NCBI RefSeq assembly: GCF_013359685.1
Contig: NZ_JABFMV010000012.1
Location: forward strand, 1 to 64,000
From: Leifsonia sp. C5G2
GTDB taxonomy: Bacteria; Actinomycetota; Actinomycetes; Actinomycetales; Microbacteriaceae
Direction: 5' to 3'
DNA length: 64,000 nt
Below the pieces are notes generated by a model. It had not been told where the DNA came from. It ran no database searches and was given only the letters and a program-made list of their open reading frames with translations. The translations under genes and the position numbers were made by a program. This document shows positions 33,195 through 60,419 of this stretch, one piece after another; the first letter of the stretch is position 1; each line of letters starts with the position of its first letter.

Positions 33195-33266
33195 GCCTCT
33201 GTAGCTCAATGGAAGAGCAGTTCCGTCCTAAGGAAACGGTTGGGGGTTCGAGTCCCTCCAGGGGCA
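33195..33266 (+). tRNA. tRNA-Arg (anticodon CCT)
   Basis: 72-base cloverleaf. The acceptor stem GCCTCTG pairs with CAGGGGC, followed by discriminator A. D arm GCTC/GAGC; anticodon loop GTCCTAA with CCT; T arm GGGGG-TTCGAGT-CCCTC. The first pair of the anticodon stem is mismatched (G-A). No CCA is encoded. A TAGACT -10-like box lies at 33179-33184. The last 18 bases before the discriminator region are duplicated at 60402, so this is the island's integration site. Confidence 0.95.
33247..33264 (+). repeat. Left attachment-site repeat (within tRNA-Arg)
   Basis: TTCGAGTCCCTCCAGGGG, covering the T loop to the acceptor stem of tRNA-Arg. Identical to 60402-60419. Insertion leaves the tRNA intact, as expected for tyrosine-integrase islands. 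Confidence 0.9.
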
Positions 33267-33334
33267 CTTTCGGTCGACAGTAAAAGTGCTGGTCAGAGGC
33301 GCATTTCGACCGATAAATAACACTCACTATCCAC

Positions 33335-33357
33335 GATTTGCCCACAATTTGCCCACA
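33335..33357 (+). repeat. Left 23-bp terminal repeat (candidate integrase arm site)
   Basis: Two tandem ATTTGCCCACA units preceded by G. The same 23 bases recur in the same orientation at 60273-60295. It lies 70 bases inside the left attachment repeat. Paired 11-bp direct repeats near attachment sites are the expected form of integrase arm-type sites. Beside it, AAACTCTAAG is tandemly repeated at 33369-33388. The rest of 33267-33676 holds no gene that I can support. Confidence 0.75.
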
Positions 33358-38248: not shown

Positions 38249-39409
38249 CTAAGTCCAGAGGCTGCCTCCGCTCTCGGCGATCACGCGTTCGTTAAGCCGA
38301 TCAGCGACAGACCCTAGATCGTCCTCGAAGAGATCGGCGTAGGTGTCCAGCGTCATCGCGGCCGACTTGTGACCGAGCATGCGCTGAAGGGCTTTGACGT
38401 TCGCACCGGCGCTGACGGCCAGGCTAGCGGCGGTGTGCTTGAGGTCGTGCGGCGTCATGTGCTCAAGTCCGGCATCGCGCAGCGCGGTCAGCCACCAGGA
38501 TTGCCGGTTCAGGGCGGTGTCTGGTCGAGCGAGGTAGCCGCCGGCGCGGGCAGGGAATACGAGGTCGCTACGCTTCTTTCCGGCGATCAGCGCCTCGAGA
38601 CGAGGCGCAAGGAACGCTGGGAACGGTACCGAACGGGCCTCCCAACTCTTCGGCGGCCCCACGTGGATGAGCCCGTCCACTTCTGTAGCGGTTTGGTGGA
38701 TGGCGAGACGGCAACGTTCCAGGTCGATGTCGTTGACCGTGAGCGCGACAGCTTCACCCCACCGGATGCCGGTGTAGGCGAGAGTCAGGACGAGGACGCT
38801 TCGCATGTCGTCGGGCACGGCGTGTGCGAATCGGAAGACTTCCTCGTTGGTCAGGTATCGGCGACGCTTCTTGGTTCCCTTGCGCGGAAGGTTGCTCGCG
38901 CCGCGAGCGGGGTTCGCTGGAATCCTGCCGTCGCGCACAGCAACGTCGAGGATGCCCGCGAGGATCCCTACCGCGCGGAGAACGACGCCGGCCGATCGTG
39001 GCTTACCGGCGTTACCTTCGCGGACCCGAACCGTGACAGCCTTGCCTTGGCTTAGCTCGCGGATCCACTTCTCGACGGCCGACGGCCGGATCGCGCCGAT
39101 CGGAGTCGCCGCCCAGCGCGGCTCGACGTACACGCGCCATGCAATGCGAATGGGCGAGAAGCTTGAGGGCTTAAGGGCTTGCTCCTTGTTGGCGAGCCAC
39201 TCCGAGGCGAGCTCACCGACGGTGATCTTCGACTGGGATGCCTCGAAGTAGGTTCCTCTTGCCATTGCCACTTCGACCGTAGCGTTGTACAGCTCTGCTT
39301 CGCGCTTGGTACGAAACCCGCGCTTCTCACGCTGTTGGTGTTCGGGGTCGCGCCAGCGCACGCGATAGCGCCGGCCCTTGGCCGACTCGTATGCGTCGAT
39401 GCTTCCCAC
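38249..39409 (-). CDS. Tyrosine-type site-specific integrase
   Basis: 386-residue phage-type integrase. N-terminal AMP-binding-like arm domain (YRVRWRDPEHQQREKRGFRTKREAE), SAM-like core-binding domain (about 60-160), and catalytic domain with Arg in YTGIRWGEAVAL, the HDLKHTAAS box and the Tyr in AAMTLDTYADLF. The second catalytic Arg of the usual HDLRH box is Lys here. It lies about 5 kb from the left att site rather than next to it, convergent with the NERD-helicase (12-base gap). It should catalyse excision and integration at tRNA-Arg. Confidence 0.93.
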   Translation of the reverse strand: MGSIDAYESAKGRRYRVRWRDPEHQQREKRGFRTKREAELYNATVEVAMARGTYFEASQSKITVGELASEWLANKEQALKPSSFSPIRIAWRVYVEPRWAATPIGAIRPSAVEKWIRELSQGKAVTVRVREGNAGKPRSAGVVLRAVGILAGILDVAVRDGRIPANPARGASNLPRKGTKKRRRYLTNEEVFRFAHAVPDDMRSVLVLTLAYTGIRWGEAVALTVNDIDLERCRLAIHQTATEVDGLIHVGPPKSWEARSVPFPAFLAPRLEALIAGKKRSDLVFPARAGGYLARPDTALNRQSWWLTALRDAGLEHMTPHDLKHTAASLAVSAGANVKALQRMLGHKSAAMTLDTYADLFEDDLGSVADRLNERVIAESGGSLWT

Positions 39410-55358: not shown

Positions 55359-56774
55359 GTGATAAAGATTTGCACTAGCAGCCCCACCGTCCTGAACCGG
55401 GCTGGCGTGGAGGTAGACGTGAAGGAGCGGGCCGGCGTACTCCTGCGGATTCTGTTGCTCGATCCGGACCCGCGAGTTCCGGTCGAAGGTGCTGCTGCTG
55501 TCATGGGAATTGCGACCTCGGGATTTGGCCAGTACTTGGCGCAACTACGTCGCTCCTTCGGGGACGACGCTCTCGTGCCGCGAGCCAACGGGCACGTCTG
55601 GTTCGCCGGTGATCGCGAAGGCAACGATGCCGCGCTCATCAAATCCATCCACAGCGAGGTCGCGCATGAATATCCAGATTCAGCGGCTTTGAGCCCAGAG
55701 ACTGCAGGGCGGATCATGCCGGGCCTCGAGCGGATTGAGCGACTGTATGCGGGCAATCCGGCCATGGGTCTTTCGGGCTTCAGCATCGATGACGTGCCGG
55801 ACCAGTATGTGCAATGGGCGATCGCACTCGACGACGTGGTGTCCGAGTGGATGGAACGTTGGAGCTCGGTGCAGCTTTTGCTCGCGGATTGCAGAATGAC
55901 TTTGGCGCCGGATCGTCAAACGGGTCGCCGCGTACTTGCTGACTTGCTCAAAATAGCTCGCAACCGCGATCCGGATGAAGAGGTTTTTCCACGCCTCCTC
56001 CGCGCGGCCAAAATGTCCCAGGACATTCGCCAGCATCGCAATGCGTGGGAGTTGGTACGGAGATTCTATGAGCAAGAACGCATAGATTTTCCGGATGAAC
56101 TGTCGGAGCTGGCTCCGAGAGTTTCGAGCCTGCCCAACACTCCTTGGGCGCCGCACAGGGCACGGCCGCTCAGCGAGCCGCTGGAATCCGGGATCAAGGT
56201 TGAGGATCATCTTCACGAAATCGCTCGACTGCTCGGGATCACGACCGATTCGACACTCGCGCTACGCGGTGCGGAGGTGGAACCAGCGGAATGCATCGCA
56301 CGAACCACTCGTCGGCTCTACTTCTCAGGGATCTTGGCGTCAAAGTGGGTTATGGAGCCTGGCCTCCGAAGCGAATTCGATGAAATGCTGATTCGCCTAG
56401 ACGGAGAACGCGACGAGCCAGGCGACGTGCGATTTATGATAATCGACCCAGATGGGGACGCGTACAAAGAGCTATTGCAATTACGCGGGGGTCGTCTGAG
56501 CAAGGAGTCGGTTCCTCATCTGCGCGACCTCGCATCGCGGCACCCGTCCTTCGAGGTGCGGGTAGTGAACTCTCTGCCGGCCTTCCGCATCGTGGTTATC
56601 GACGACGATGTGGTCAGTTTCTCGCCTTACGCGCTTGAGGGAGAACGCTATGCCACGAGCAAGCTCGGCTGGGAAGCTCCGCACGTGCTGCTTGACCCCC
56701 TCGCGCCATACCCGCTCGCAGACGCCTTCCGGCTCTACTTCGAGGAACGGTGGCTAAGCGCGAAGGTGCTCTAG
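55359..56774 (+). CDS. Winged-helix regulator with PLD-like C-terminal domain
   Basis: 471 residues. The N-terminal winged-helix-like domain (about 5-85: AGVLLRILLLDPDPRVPVEGAAAVMGIATSGFGQYLAQLRRSFGDDALV) resembles SARP/OmpR-type output domains. The middle is a helical region (about 90-290). The C-terminal 140 residues (ARTTRRLYFSGILAS ... VRFMIIDPDG ... FEVRVVNSLPAFRIVVIDDDVVSFSPYA) resemble the PLD-fold sensor domains found behind HTH domains; the HxK motifs of active PLD enzymes are not seen. GTG 55359 follows TGGGAGG. First gene of the four-gene operon; likely its regulator or sensor. Confidence 0.7.
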   Translation: MIKICTSSPTVLNRAGVEVDVKERAGVLLRILLLDPDPRVPVEGAAAVMGIATSGFGQYLAQLRRSFGDDALVPRANGHVWFAGDREGNDAALIKSIHSEVAHEYPDSAALSPETAGRIMPGLERIERLYAGNPAMGLSGFSIDDVPDQYVQWAIALDDVVSEWMERWSSVQLLLADCRMTLAPDRQTGRRVLADLLKIARNRDPDEEVFPRLLRAAKMSQDIRQHRNAWELVRRFYEQERIDFPDELSELAPRVSSLPNTPWAPHRARPLSEPLESGIKVEDHLHEIARLLGITTDSTLALRGAEVEPAECIARTTRRLYFSGILASKWVMEPGLRSEFDEMLIRLDGERDEPGDVRFMIIDPDGDAYKELLQLRGGRLSKESVPHLRDLASRHPSFEVRVVNSLPAFRIVVIDDDVVSFSPYALEGERYATSKLGWEAPHVLLDPLAPYPLADAFRLYFEERWLSAKVL

Positions 56775-56817
56775 TTACAAGCAACTGGCGAAACTCTGGA
56801 TCTTGGGAGGAACTGGA

Positions 56818-57375
56818 ATGGTACAGAACGGCATCGTGCTTGGGCGGTTTCAACCGCTACACCTCGGGCATGTTGAATACCTGGATGCGGCCCGCGCTCG
56901 ATGCGTTCGCCTCTTCATTGGCATCACCAATCCTGACCCAAGCCCTTCTTTGATCGTGGAGAGCGACTCGAAGAGGTCGGAAACAGCGAGCAACCCCTTC
57001 ACATACATCGATCGCCACCTAATGATCGAGCAGGGCTTGATTGAGCTGGGCTGGGCGCGTCAAGACTTCTGTTTGATGGCTGCTCCCATTACCGATCCGA
57101 AACGCTTATCGTCGTACCTCCCGTCCCCCAGGACATCTGAGTTCTTTGTCACCATTTACGACGACTGGGGCGACCAAAAGGCGCGCGAGATTACCGCGCT
57201 CGGTTACACCACTACCACCTTGTGGCGACGAACGCACGATCAGCGCCTGACGTCTGGGACCGAAATTAGAGCGGCGATGCGGTCAGGGCAACCCTGGCGA
57301 CATCTGGTACCCACCGGGGTAGCGGACTACATCGTCGAGAATGAGCTCGAAAGTGCAGTGGCGGCGAAGTCATGA
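56818..57375 (+). CDS. NadM-like nucleotidyltransferase
   Basis: 185-residue HxGH nucleotidyltransferase. GRFQPLHLGH (H15, H18) is the nucleotide-binding loop; NPFTYIDRHLMI, TSGTEIRAAMRSGQPWRHLVP (the second, S/T-G-T-x-I-R motif) and VADYIVE match archaeal-type NMN adenylyltransferases (NadM) closely in order. The substrate pocket differs, so the acceptor may be NMN or another phosphorylated compound. The reaction should release pyrophosphate. ATG 56818 follows TGGGAGG. It overlaps the next gene by 4 bases and follows the regulator by 43 bases. Confidence 0.82.
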   Translation: MVQNGIVLGRFQPLHLGHVEYLDAARARCVRLFIGITNPDPSPSLIVESDSKRSETASNPFTYIDRHLMIEQGLIELGWARQDFCLMAAPITDPKRLSSYLPSPRTSEFFVTIYDDWGDQKAREITALGYTTTTLWRRTHDQRLTSGTEIRAAMRSGQPWRHLVPTGVADYIVENELESAVAAKS

Positions 57376-59222
57376 TCGACCTATCAGAGGGCCTAGCCGA
57401 TCCCGCCAAGTATGGTTGGAAAGCGCACTACTTGAGCCTTATGCTCGTCGGCGGGTTTGCTGTACCGCACGCGATCGCGATCGATCCCGAGGAGGACCTG
57501 CACGGTCTGCCATTCGATGAGCAAACAGTCTTAGCGGTTAGAAGTTCTGGATTCGGCGAAGACGATACGTCTGAATCTCACGCAGGCCGGTTTACGACGG
57601 TGTTGAACGTCGACGGGGAAGATGCCGTCAGGATCGCCGTCCACAGCGTCAGGGCAAGCGGAGACAACGAAATGCCGATGGGTGTTGTTATCCAGGAAAT
57701 GGTCGAAGCGCCCATTCTGTCGGGTGTGGCGTTTTCATGTCATCCGATCACGCTCGACCCTGAGCTCATAACGATCTCTTGGGTAGCTGGGTTGGGTGTG
57801 GGGCTCGTTGACGGTACCGCGAAAGCGTGCGAGCTCGAGGTTCGTCGCATCGATGGGGCAATCGCCTCGGGTGACTGGCCCCTTTCCGCCGAGTTACTAA
57901 CCGAGCTAGTGCACGCGGTGATTGCACTCGATGGCATTCTCGACAGTCCAGTCGACGTCGAGTGGACGATTGATTCTGATGGAGCATTGTTGCTTCTTCA
58001 AGTGAGGCCGGTCGTGATCGGGCCAGCCTTATGCGTCGACCTCGACCGTGCTCAAGCGTTCGATAGCCTTCCGGGCCCCGTGAAAAGCCATAACAAGATA
58101 TCCCTCCGTCGCGATGCCGTAAGGTTGCATATTCCTATGTCACGAGCGCGCGCGGTGGTGGCCACCCGCGGCGATAGCCGTCCGTCGATACCGGAGATGG
58201 TGCCGAGCGAGGAGTCGTCGGGCCGTAGCGTCGTCCTGCTTCATCCGCGCCGCGTGAATGGACGCATCGTACGAAAGTTCTCGATGGACCGCCCTATGGA
58301 TGTAGAGCTAGCTTTGCGCGGATGCGAACGATATGCGATACGTCAGTATCCCGATCCGAACTTCGCTGTCGGTGCGGTAGAACGCGTCCTAGCAACGGGT
58401 CTCGAAGCGAGCCCGCTTTCGTGTGTCATCGAGCAAGAACTGTTGTATGCCTATGCCACCGGCATCCTGCGGCGCACGCGTGAGGGCTATCTGATCGAGC
58501 TCGCCGTTGGGCACTTCGTGCCCAAAGGATACGTAGAGACATGCACGTTTGTACTCAACGAGCAAGGCGAGGTGTTGTTGCGCTCGCGGCCCTTGCAGTC
58601 CAAGGCGTATCAGTTCGTGAACGGGCACGTTGTAGTTGAGTCACCGCCGTTCGAACAGCTAGATGTCTCGGACATCGACCTGGAGAGAACCGTAAGTACT
58701 CTCGTTCCACTTATCAACGAGCGACCCAGCGCGGCGATCGAATTTGGCCTGCTTGGAGTCCCCGGCCGTTTGGCCCCCTACATGATTGATATTGCCGAAA
58801 GCGACGATAAGGGTGGTCGGATGTCTTCGGTCGAAATTGAGCGAGGGATAGTCTCGTCTGGGTCAGCTGTAGGGACGGTTGTCGATCTCCGAGTCGCGCC
58901 GTCGCTGATCGATCTAGATTCCCATTTGCACGACGGTGTGTCCCCTAGTCGAAAGGTTTCCACCGAGTCCTCCATTTATGTCGCACGGCGGGCTTCTGTG
59001 GAACTTCTCACCCTCGTTAGGACCTGTCATCCGTCCAGCGGCTTCGTGTTCGAGCAGGCATCGCTACTGTCTCACCTCGCCGTGGTCATGCGAGAGCGGG
59101 GTATTGCGGGACTGATTGCGAGTCCCGAGGTACTCGATCGTCTTACCTCTTCAGGCGGCCGATGGCGGCTCGATACCTCAAAGAAGGACCCTGTCACCCC
59201 GGCGGAAGTGAGTGCAAATTGA
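57372..59222 (+). CDS. PPDK/rifampin-phosphotransferase-like dikinase
   Basis: 616 residues. The N-terminal ATP-grasp (PPDK_N, about 1-220) has VLAVRSSGFGEDDTSESHAGRFTTVLNV, GVAFSCHPITLDPE and DSDGALLLLQVRPVV. A middle domain of about 280 residues has no recognised family. The C-terminal swivelling phosphohistidine domain has His568 in LLSHLAVVMRERGIAGLI. The PEP/pyruvate TIM barrel of PEP synthase is missing, so the architecture is that of rifampin phosphotransferase: ATP to AMP plus phosphohistidine, with phosphate passed to a small molecule. The acceptor is unknown. ATG overlaps upstream; the stop is overlapped by the DHH gene. Confidence 0.78.
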   Translation: MIDLSEGLADPAKYGWKAHYLSLMLVGGFAVPHAIAIDPEEDLHGLPFDEQTVLAVRSSGFGEDDTSESHAGRFTTVLNVDGEDAVRIAVHSVRASGDNEMPMGVVIQEMVEAPILSGVAFSCHPITLDPELITISWVAGLGVGLVDGTAKACELEVRRIDGAIASGDWPLSAELLTELVHAVIALDGILDSPVDVEWTIDSDGALLLLQVRPVVIGPALCVDLDRAQAFDSLPGPVKSHNKISLRRDAVRLHIPMSRARAVVATRGDSRPSIPEMVPSEESSGRSVVLLHPRRVNGRIVRKFSMDRPMDVELALRGCERYAIRQYPDPNFAVGAVERVLATGLEASPLSCVIEQELLYAYATGILRRTREGYLIELAVGHFVPKGYVETCTFVLNEQGEVLLRSRPLQSKAYQFVNGHVVVESPPFEQLDVSDIDLERTVSTLVPLINERPSAAIEFGLLGVPGRLAPYMIDIAESDDKGGRMSSVEIERGIVSSGSAVGTVVDLRVAPSLIDLDSHLHDGVSPSRKVSTESSIYVARRASVELLTLVRTCHPSSGFVFEQASLLSHLAVVMRERGIAGLIASPEVLDRLTSSGGRWRLDTSKKDPVTPAEVSAN

Positions 59223-60142
59223 CGACGATAGTCACCTCGTATGTCAATCCGGATCTAGACGGCGTAGCGTCGGCGATCCTGGTCGCCGGCTACCTCATGC
59301 CGGCCGCCTCGTTGAGGTTTGCCGGCCGTCTCAATGCCGAAACGCTCGGCGTTCTCGGCGCTTTGAGACTGCAGTCCGACCTTGGCGATTTCCTACAGCC
59401 GGTCACAAACCCCGCAAACTTCGTTCTTGTGGATTGCCACCATCCCGCTCAGCTGCCCAGCTTTGTCCGGCCCGAAGACGTCATACAGGTAATCGACCAT
59501 CACCCGGACGGGCATCCCGAGGCGTTTCCCAATGCCGTCGTACAAAACGAGAAGGTCGGTGCCGCGACGACCTTGGTGGTCGAACACGTGCTTCTCCGGC
59601 CGGCGTCGCCGCTACCAGCTATTTCGGCGCATCACGCAGGCCTAGTTGCATGCGCAATCGCATCGAACACACTCGATTTCACCGCACCATCGACAAGCGC
59701 TCGCGACATGAAAGTTTTCGGCTTGGTCCGTCGCTTGGCGCAAGGCATCGAACTTGATCCTCTTCTTGCCTCGATGAGAGAATGGCGCGCGCAAATTCTC
59801 TCCGCCTCAACTCGTGAAGCGGTAGAACACGACGTAAAAGTTATCGACTCCAGTTTGGGCAAGGTTGCGGTAGCGCAGATAGAAGCACACGGCGCTCGGG
59901 TCCTGATTCATCGACCTGAGCTCCGACAAGAACTCGAGGCGCTGGCATCTAGCCGCGGTGCCATTTCGGCCTTGCTCAGCTTGGTAGACACGGAGGAGGG
60001 CACGACGACTCTCTTTGTCACGAATTCAGAAGTTGGCAAGCTAGTCGCCGCGCTACACCCTTCCTCGCAGAGCGAATTCGTTTTTAAGCTTCCCTACATC
60101 GCACTCCGCAAGACCCACGTAATCCCCGCGTTGCAAGGCTGA
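59219..60142 (+). CDS. DHH phosphoesterase resembling family II pyrophosphatase
   Basis: 307 residues. DHH domain: NPDLDGVASAI (residues 10-20), VDCHHPAQLP (71-80), VIDHHPDGHPEAF (91-103), GAATTLV, ACAIASNTLDFTAPSTSARD. The order and the last motif are those of manganese-dependent inorganic pyrophosphatases. A DHHA2-like C-terminal domain ends LRKTHVIPAL where the family has SRKKQ-x-PPL. Tyr8 replaces the usual first metal-binding His, as in Prune/PPX1-type relatives, so substrate may be PPi, polyphosphate or a nucleotide. TTG 59219 overlaps the upstream stop (TTGA). Last gene of the operon and of the island. Confidence 0.82.
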   Translation: MTTIVTSYVNPDLDGVASAILVAGYLMPAASLRFAGRLNAETLGVLGALRLQSDLGDFLQPVTNPANFVLVDCHHPAQLPSFVRPEDVIQVIDHHPDGHPEAFPNAVVQNEKVGAATTLVVEHVLLRPASPLPAISAHHAGLVACAIASNTLDFTAPSTSARDMKVFGLVRRLAQGIELDPLLASMREWRAQILSASTREAVEHDVKVIDSSLGKVAVAQIEAHGARVLIHRPELRQELEALASSRGAISALLSLVDTEEGTTTLFVTNSEVGKLVAALHPSSQSEFVFKLPYIALRKTHVIPALQG

Positions 60143-60401: not shown

Positions 60402-60419
60402 TTCGAGTCCCTCCAGGGG
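60402..60419 (+). repeat. Right attachment-site repeat
   Basis: TTCGAGTCCCTCCAGGGG, identical to the 3' part of tRNA-Arg(CCT) at 33247-33264. It marks the right end of the island; sequence after it returns to chromosome-type composition. Confidence 0.9.

Follow-up and report, generated by a model that had tools for sequence, protein, structure and literature searches.

What could a regulator, a nucleotidyltransferase, a dikinase and a phosphoesterase, set in one short row of genes, be making together, and for what purpose? The question is raised by positions 55359-60142 of a 64,000-nucleotide stretch of DNA from Leifsonia sp. C5G2 (contig NZ_JABFMV010000012.1, positions 1 to 64,000; the whole stretch is referred to here as the window). 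A preliminary description of this sequence had placed four genes there in the same direction (+), which is confirmed, and the 4-base overlaps that it reported for the last three were verified (ATGA at 57372-57375 and TTGA at 59219-59222). The regulator is not overlapped, the HxGH nucleotidyltransferase (NTase) beginning 43 bases beyond its end. The four genes are:

55359-56774, + strand, regulator of 471 residues with a GTG start, SARP/BTAD-like by eye, its C-terminal half conserved
56818-57375, + strand, HxGH NTase (PF01467) of 185 residues with an ATG start
57372-59222, + strand, AMP-forming dikinase of 616 residues with an ATG start, comprising PPDK_N, a middle part (about residues 225-490) and a C-terminal swivelling phosphohistidine domain
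59219-60142, + strand, DHH/DHHA2 phosphoesterase (PF01368, PF02833) with a TTG start that overlaps the dikinase stop (TTGA)

The list of open reading frames (ORFs) starts the NTase at TTG 56803, and the ATG at 56818, with GGGAGGA upstream, was judged better. The ORF of the DHH protein opens at ATG 59162; TTG 59219 was preferred because it gives the TTGA overlap and fits the relatives.

These four genes are a real, conserved and mobile unit, more than a chance neighbourhood: the gene set, its order, its co-inheritance, the intact signature motifs of the NTase and the dikinase, and the swapping of the third gene after the regulator are all established. The strongest new clue to function is this interchangeable third enzyme, which includes viperin. 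We tentatively favour the reading, drawn from the sequences, that the set is a mobile cassette that would make a nucleotide-like small molecule, with anti-phage action (an on-demand nucleotide analogue or signal) as its favoured purpose; a defence role is plausible.

A tblastn comparison of the dikinase with 72,556 plasmid records matched 124 of them, and the four matches with at least 80% query coverage were all opened; two more loci come from genomes of one actinobacterial family. Beside the window, the loci and their genes are:

L019, Rhodococcus pyridinivorans pRJH2: regulator, NTase, dikinase, DHH protein
L020, R. opacus B4 pKNR: regulator, NTase, dikinase, radical SAM protein
L021, Treponema saccharophilum pTS2: NTase, dikinase, cysteine desulfurase, viperin
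L022, Enterococcus gilvus pCR1A: NTase, dikinase, and a recombinase about 1 kb further on
L073, actinobacterial family genome: regulator, NTase, dikinase, DHH protein (ORFs picked in this analysis, not taken from annotation)
L074, actinobacterial family genome: regulator, NTase, dikinase, radical SAM protein (ORFs likewise picked in this analysis)

The co-occurrence check proposed in the preliminary description thus finds the NTase and the dikinase adjacent in seven distinct loci of three phyla (in Actinomycetota, Treponema and Enterococcus), five of them with the regulator, and the full four-gene set in three (the window, L019 and L073). Between the dikinase and the recombinase of L022 there is no ORF longer than 48 residues. 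The plasmid search was the only route to L019, L021 and L022, while L020 was reached by both the plasmid and the genome routes; L072, the same plasmid as L020 (both contigs are 111160 bases long, with the match at one and the same position), was left out of the counts. The plasmid gene tables are incomplete.

The spacing between the NTase and the dikinase lies between -11 and +3 bases (the genes overlap by 4-11 bases in five loci and are 2 and 3 bases apart in the other two), and the third gene, where present, begins -4 to +5 bases relative to the dikinase end (the TTG starts of the dikinases in L020 and L074 were chosen in this analysis). In the Treponema operon, the four genes overlap by 11, 4 and 4 bases. 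Gene order is the same in all five actinobacterial loci, and the pairwise distances among the seven NTases and among the seven dikinases are correlated with a Mantel r of 0.92, a value reached by one of 5040 relabelings, the true one. Such shared order, congruent divergence and overlapping or near-touching genes leave a chance neighbourhood without common function, for which nothing but the rarity of the set speaks, scarcely credible. All-against-all comparison of the flanks found few genes in common beyond the cassette: a phosphoribosyltransferase shared by L019 and L074, generic SDR, ABC transporter and response regulator genes, and a weak glycoside-hydrolase pair. The two phosphoribosyltransferases, with 39% identity (L019, 1950-2480, and L074, 13505-14095), lie on opposite sides of their cassettes and may represent a loose accessory gene.

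The cassette is rare: the Actinomycetota samples yielded 4 genomes that carry it. With a profile of the dikinase middle plus swivel (A3, E 1e-10), 3 of 401 genomes of one actinobacterial family were positive (L073, L074 and pKNR), and the Leifsonia genome itself was alone positive in the class (1 of 394), phylum (1 of 396) and order (1 of 297) samples; the samples overlap and the counts were not summed. At a threshold of 0.001, 41 more genomes of the class sample appeared, matching the C-terminal swivel part only. In the genus samples, the centre genome was alone positive (1/28, 1/9 and 1/14), and when the window dikinase was used to scan 60 relatives, no second full-length match appeared, the 9 other positives being to the ATP-binding domain. 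Some carriers may have escaped the genome scans, in which scoring was limited to a few top candidates from each genome. Outside Actinomycetota, the searches consisted of one genome-contig scan with the window dikinase and of the plasmid, phage and viral collections. The dikinase profile found no relatives among 46 candidate stretches of viral contigs; NTase relatives were present in 10 such contigs, and no dikinase or DHH gene was recognised by eye in the two inspected (L029 and L030). Among phage records, the dikinase found two partial domain matches (26% identity) and the Treponema NTase found none.

The NTase is assigned to PF01467 with 28.1 bits (cut-off 21, E 2.6e-6) and keeps both the HxGH motif (HLGH) and the C-terminal SGTxxR-type motif (SGTEIR), with H15, G17, H18, S146, G147 and R151 invariant in the seven rows. 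Its earlier designation as NadM-like holds for the fold only: with the NadM model (TIGR01527) it reaches 54.8 bits, where the cut-off is 181.2 (49.6 bits by genome scan). Its best structural relatives are archaeal NMN (nicotinamide mononucleotide) adenylyltransferases (1f9a, E 4e-19). The Trp of the archaeal NadM LW motif, which stacks on NMN in the NMN site, is replaced by Leu in all seven dikinase-linked NTases; both NadM rows have the Trp, as do all five rows of NTases linked to SelD. In a tree of 22 NTases, the seven dikinase-linked rows group (94/90) on a branch apart from NadM and from the SelD-linked NTases. Within it, the DHH-linked (93/98) and the radical-SAM-linked (99/99) rows form subgroups; the pair of NadM rows separates with 100/100. 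The same data bear on the explanation that the set is an NAD-related module, in which the dikinase would yield NMN or a relative, the NTase would turn it into NAD or an NAD analogue, and the DHH protein would remove pyrophosphate (PPi). The structural relatives and the intact motifs suit this explanation, but the low NadM score, the separate branch and the missing Trp make it improbable; the change from Trp to Leu argues only mildly against NMN, because the SelD-linked NTases keep the Trp.

In the dikinase, the ATP-binding domain (PF01326, PPDK_N) scores 92.5 bits (cut-off 27, E 4.1e-26), and the swivel domain (PF00391, PEP-utilizers) is sub-threshold, with 20 bits against 23.1. His568 of the latter is invariant in the seven rows and aligns with the catalytic His of PEP synthase structures, at weak domain scores. 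For the middle part, a Pfam search up to E 1 gave no match; a second ATP-grasp copy, suspected there from motifs, was dropped (hhalign probability 0.6%). The term RPH-like, applied earlier, is appropriate to the ATP-binding domain and less clearly to the swivel domain, both common to the rifampin phosphotransferase/PEP synthase group, but the protein scores 44.4 bits against a cut-off of 999 with the rifampin phosphotransferase model (NF041857), its best stretch covers residues 31-159 only, and within its 616 residues neither family's substrate domain was matched. Detoxification, with an Rph-like dikinase inactivating a drug and accessory genes beside it, could appeal to the shared domains; that score and the presence of the NTase alongside in 7 of 7 loci make it very unlikely.

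Several partial relatives of the dikinase were seen elsewhere. The eight matches of the genome-contig scan share the ATP-binding domain, and the three Variovorax proteins among them also have the swivel motif. L011 and L012, the two of the eight in which the NTase was looked for, lack it and were not counted as cassette members. The Variovorax cluster (L012, 8607-18146; L013; L014), its genes labelled by eye, combines two dCTP-deaminase-like genes with a dikinase that shares the swivel motif FEQASMLCHLA and with nucleotide-kinase-like, phosphatase-superfamily and HAD-like genes. L011 (6698-8635), from a planctomycete metagenome-assembled genome (MAG), carries a dikinase-type ATP-binding domain followed by prenyltransferase/squalene-cyclase-toroid-like repeats (by eye), with an isochorismatase-like neighbour. 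The Leifsonia genome itself (G000:C8:11349-12086) and a genome of the same genus (G001) encode a protein, in a frame of 282 codons, whose match is confined to the N-terminus of the dikinase (37% identity, residues 3-226).

The DHH protein is above the Pfam cut-offs for both DHH and DHHA2. In common with family II (Mn) pyrophosphatases, it has the DHH motif, intact in the three actinobacterial members and DHR in a Halorussus relative, and a C-terminal Arg-Lys, present in all four. It differs from them in scoring 106 bits against the curated Mn-pyrophosphatase cut-off of 283 (NF003877) and at two metal ligands of the B. subtilis enzyme (1k23): in each of the four members aligned, the column of His9 has Tyr and that of Asp149 has Asn. 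Thus, plain pyrophosphatase activity is uncertain, and of the earlier label "DHH pyrophosphatase-like" it is the domain assignment that stands. The regulator is 33-61% identical to the four regulators at the same position in other loci. It gave nothing above the Pfam cut-offs (BTAD, E 0.00087, was sub-threshold and in one of five members) and had no usable relative among solved structures; the PLD-like part previously ascribed to it found no Pfam support in any of the five members.

Over the seven loci, the third slot holds a DHH protein in three, a MoaA/viperin-like radical SAM protein in two and a cysteine desulfurase with viperin in one, and is empty in one. The Treponema viperin scores 243.4 bits in NCBIfam (cut-off 180) and is matched in PADLOC with E 9.4e-67. 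The radical SAM protein of R. opacus passes neither the MoaA (105.8 of 284 bits) nor the viperin (64.5 of 180 bits) model, and that of L074 is its homologue. No viperin was found by family scans among the window's four genes, to which this search was confined. Viperin is known from antiviral defence, and both viperin and MoaA act on nucleotides, which is why the product of the cassette is expected to be nucleotide-like. Among the closest known systems are the prokaryotic viperins, pVip, some of which come with nucleotide kinases: the NTase-dikinase pair and a viperin share one operon in T. saccharophilum, and the theme of modified nucleotides is common to both. In contrast, the window cassette has no viperin among its four genes, and the pVip systems of PADLOC come with or without kinases, a description that does not include an HxGH NTase together with a dikinase of the PEP-synthase type. 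The statement that no named system has this combination agrees with the literature search, in which no description of the cassette was present among the matches listed.

In these families, a dikinase converts its substrate, S, to S-P with release of AMP and phosphate (Pi), and an NTase yields a nucleotide conjugate and PPi. In the favoured reading, the SARP-like regulator would switch the cassette on, and the dikinase, by means of its ATP-binding domain and swivelling His568, would phosphorylate a small substrate recognised by its middle domain (S + ATP -> S-P + AMP + Pi). The HxGH NTase would then couple S-P to a nucleotide (S-P + NTP -> S-P-P-nucleoside + PPi). The swappable third enzyme would finish or drive the pathway: in the window, DHH/DHHA2 may hydrolyse PPi or a phosphorylated by-product, and elsewhere the step may fall to a MoaA/viperin-like radical SAM protein or to viperin with a cysteine desulfurase. 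As the third gene varies, its enzyme would either drive or tailor. The chemistry outlined in the preliminary description, with an AMP-forming dikinase, then a PPi-releasing NTase, and a DHHA2 enzyme in three loci, is coherent in these terms. A bolder version, in which the dikinase and the HxGH NTase build an activated nucleotide scaffold that an interchangeable finisher (DHH phosphoesterase, MoaA-like radical SAM protein or viperin) turns into chain terminators or signal dinucleotides of a kind not known so far, forming a new class of anti-phage system, strikes us as rather unlikely.

The genomic setting of the cassette is described by the following features of the window:

33247-60419, no strand assigned, genomic island of 27 kb integrated at tRNA-Arg, marked by exact repeats, the tRNA-Arg and a drop in GC, with the cassette at its right end
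33195-33267, tRNA-Arg
38249-39409, - strand, tyrosine-integrase-like ORF, read by eye

The att core TTCGAGTCCCTCCAGGGG (18 bases, the 3' end of the tRNA-Arg) lies at 33247-33264 and is duplicated at 60402-60419; a second repeat pair, GATTTGCCCACAATTTGCCCACA, is found inside the island at 33335 and 60273. GC over 1500-base intervals is 0.58-0.66 in the island, 0.68-0.73 in the left flank and 0.63-0.70 in the right flank; the contrast is weaker on the right, where the repeats are better evidence for the border than GC is. The PADLOC matches among the island proteins scanned include a type IIG restriction enzyme (E 1.9e-251), a PLD/SNF2 helicase and a restriction-like protein of the Orf5/type IV kind (E 1.3e-83); the island carries several restriction and helicase genes. 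The earlier placement of the genes at one end of an island rich in defence genes is correct, the cassette being its last cargo. In L019, the cassette is followed downstream, at a distance of 297 bases, by IetAS on the opposite strand (IetA, E 1.5e-69; IetS, E 3.6e-34). In L074, a PD-Lambda-2_B-like protein (E 5e-10) precedes the regulator by about 3 kb on the upstream side, and the downstream side gave weak helicase matches; one of three proteins scanned beyond the L020 cassette matched PADLOC, as an ABC-type ATPase, and one of five ORFs scanned beside the L073 cassette did so, as a methyltransferase type, with no convincing defence gene there. The flank scans covered some of the genes around the cassettes of L019, L020, L073 and L074.

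Relatives of the NTase occur in a different arrangement. SelD is an AMP-forming dikinase that is not homologous to the PEP-synthase type, and related NTases lie beside SelD in L025, L027 and 7 of 7 MAG-type loci. At E 1e-12, the NTase profile found 8 of 388 class genomes, namely the Leifsonia genome and seven with SelD, an iPGM-like protein and an acyl-CoA dehydrogenase (7 of 7); in the four carrier genomes, such an NTase occurs once per genome, at the position of the dikinase. Among plasmids, the Treponema NTase matched 16 records, four of which are the NTase-dikinase pairs named above, and five of the other 12 were opened, giving four acyl-CoA dehydrogenase/iPGM-like arrangements and one from Halorussus (SelD-related and DHHA2). 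The SelD-related label was tested in L023 and L024, both below the model cut-off, and assumed from position in L026. No NTase of the dikinase-linked type was seen without its dikinase among the loci examined.

The SelD arrangement is a separate conserved operon of Rhodococcus plasmids and actinobacterial MAG-type genomes, with genes for an acyl-CoA dehydrogenase, SelD or a SelD-related protein, an HxGH NTase and an iPGM-like protein (L025, 6675-10871; L027; L024; L026; L087-L093). It resembles the window cassette in having a related NTase beside an AMP-forming dikinase, and differs in its non-homologous dikinase, its extra metabolic genes and its NTase groups. The iPGM-like proteins of L024 and L025 are sub-threshold on the PhpG model, and several MAG-type copies add MmgE/PrpD-like and isochorismatase-like genes (by eye). 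On the Halorussus salilacus plasmid (L023, 5618-10763), SelD-related, NTase and DHHA2 genes stand in a row, near an adenylate kinase-like gene; this arrangement is an archaeal parallel to the dikinase-NTase-DHH logic of the window.

Could the cassette, then, be a mobile biosynthetic or catabolic unit for a specialised metabolite (antibiotic, phosphonate-like, or thio- or seleno-phosphate), with the same activation chemistry and no phage defence? We regard this as possible, if doubtful. SARP-type regulators often control antibiotic clusters, and the related NTases do keep company with SelD, acyl-CoA dehydrogenase and an iPGM-like enzyme (186.9 bits with the PhpG phosphonoformyl transferase model, cut-off 545), while the five ORFs scanned beside L073 include no convincing defence gene. 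PhpF and Fom1, from pathways for phosphonate antibiotics, belong to PF01467 (PMC6697681). However, four genes are few for a metabolite cluster, no further gene is conserved beside the cassette across loci, and the viperin of the third slot and the IetAS or restriction-modification neighbours suit defence better.

A number of observations weigh against the favoured reading of a nucleotide-making, anti-phage cassette. None of the window's four proteins matched a known anti-phage model (PADLOC 2.0.0, E 0.01; 0 of 4), and clear defence genes accompany 3 of 7 loci only (the window island, L019 and L021) in the incomplete scan of the flanks. Viperin occurs in one locus only, L021, and of 14 plasmids with a viperin related to that of Treponema, only one also has a dikinase match of at least 80%. 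The earlier proposal that the DHH enzyme pulls the reaction by removing PPi is weakened by the Tyr and Asn at the ligand positions and by the absence of DHH from 4 of 7 loci. A plain biosynthetic role is possible, because the related NTases lie in an apparent chromosomal metabolic operon. Finding three loci through plasmids only biases the picture of mobility and context; the dikinase-linked NTase clade (94/90) falls short of the tool's star level; and the structure predictions have a mean pLDDT of 31 for the dikinase (window and three Variovorax relatives) and 35 for the regulator.

From the preliminary description, the general idea and the co-occurring unit survive, while the family names NadM, Rph and pyrophosphatase are not supported, the scores lying below the respective cut-offs. 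If an antiviral nucleotide is made, viperin chemistry would be linked to a wholly different supply route, in a modular pathway whose finisher is swapped between lineages. Even if the purpose is not defence, the cassette adds a new pair of enzymes, and the repeated pairing of HxGH NTases with AMP-forming dikinases, whether of the PEP-synthase fold or of the SelD fold, gives a direct clue to the class of substrate.

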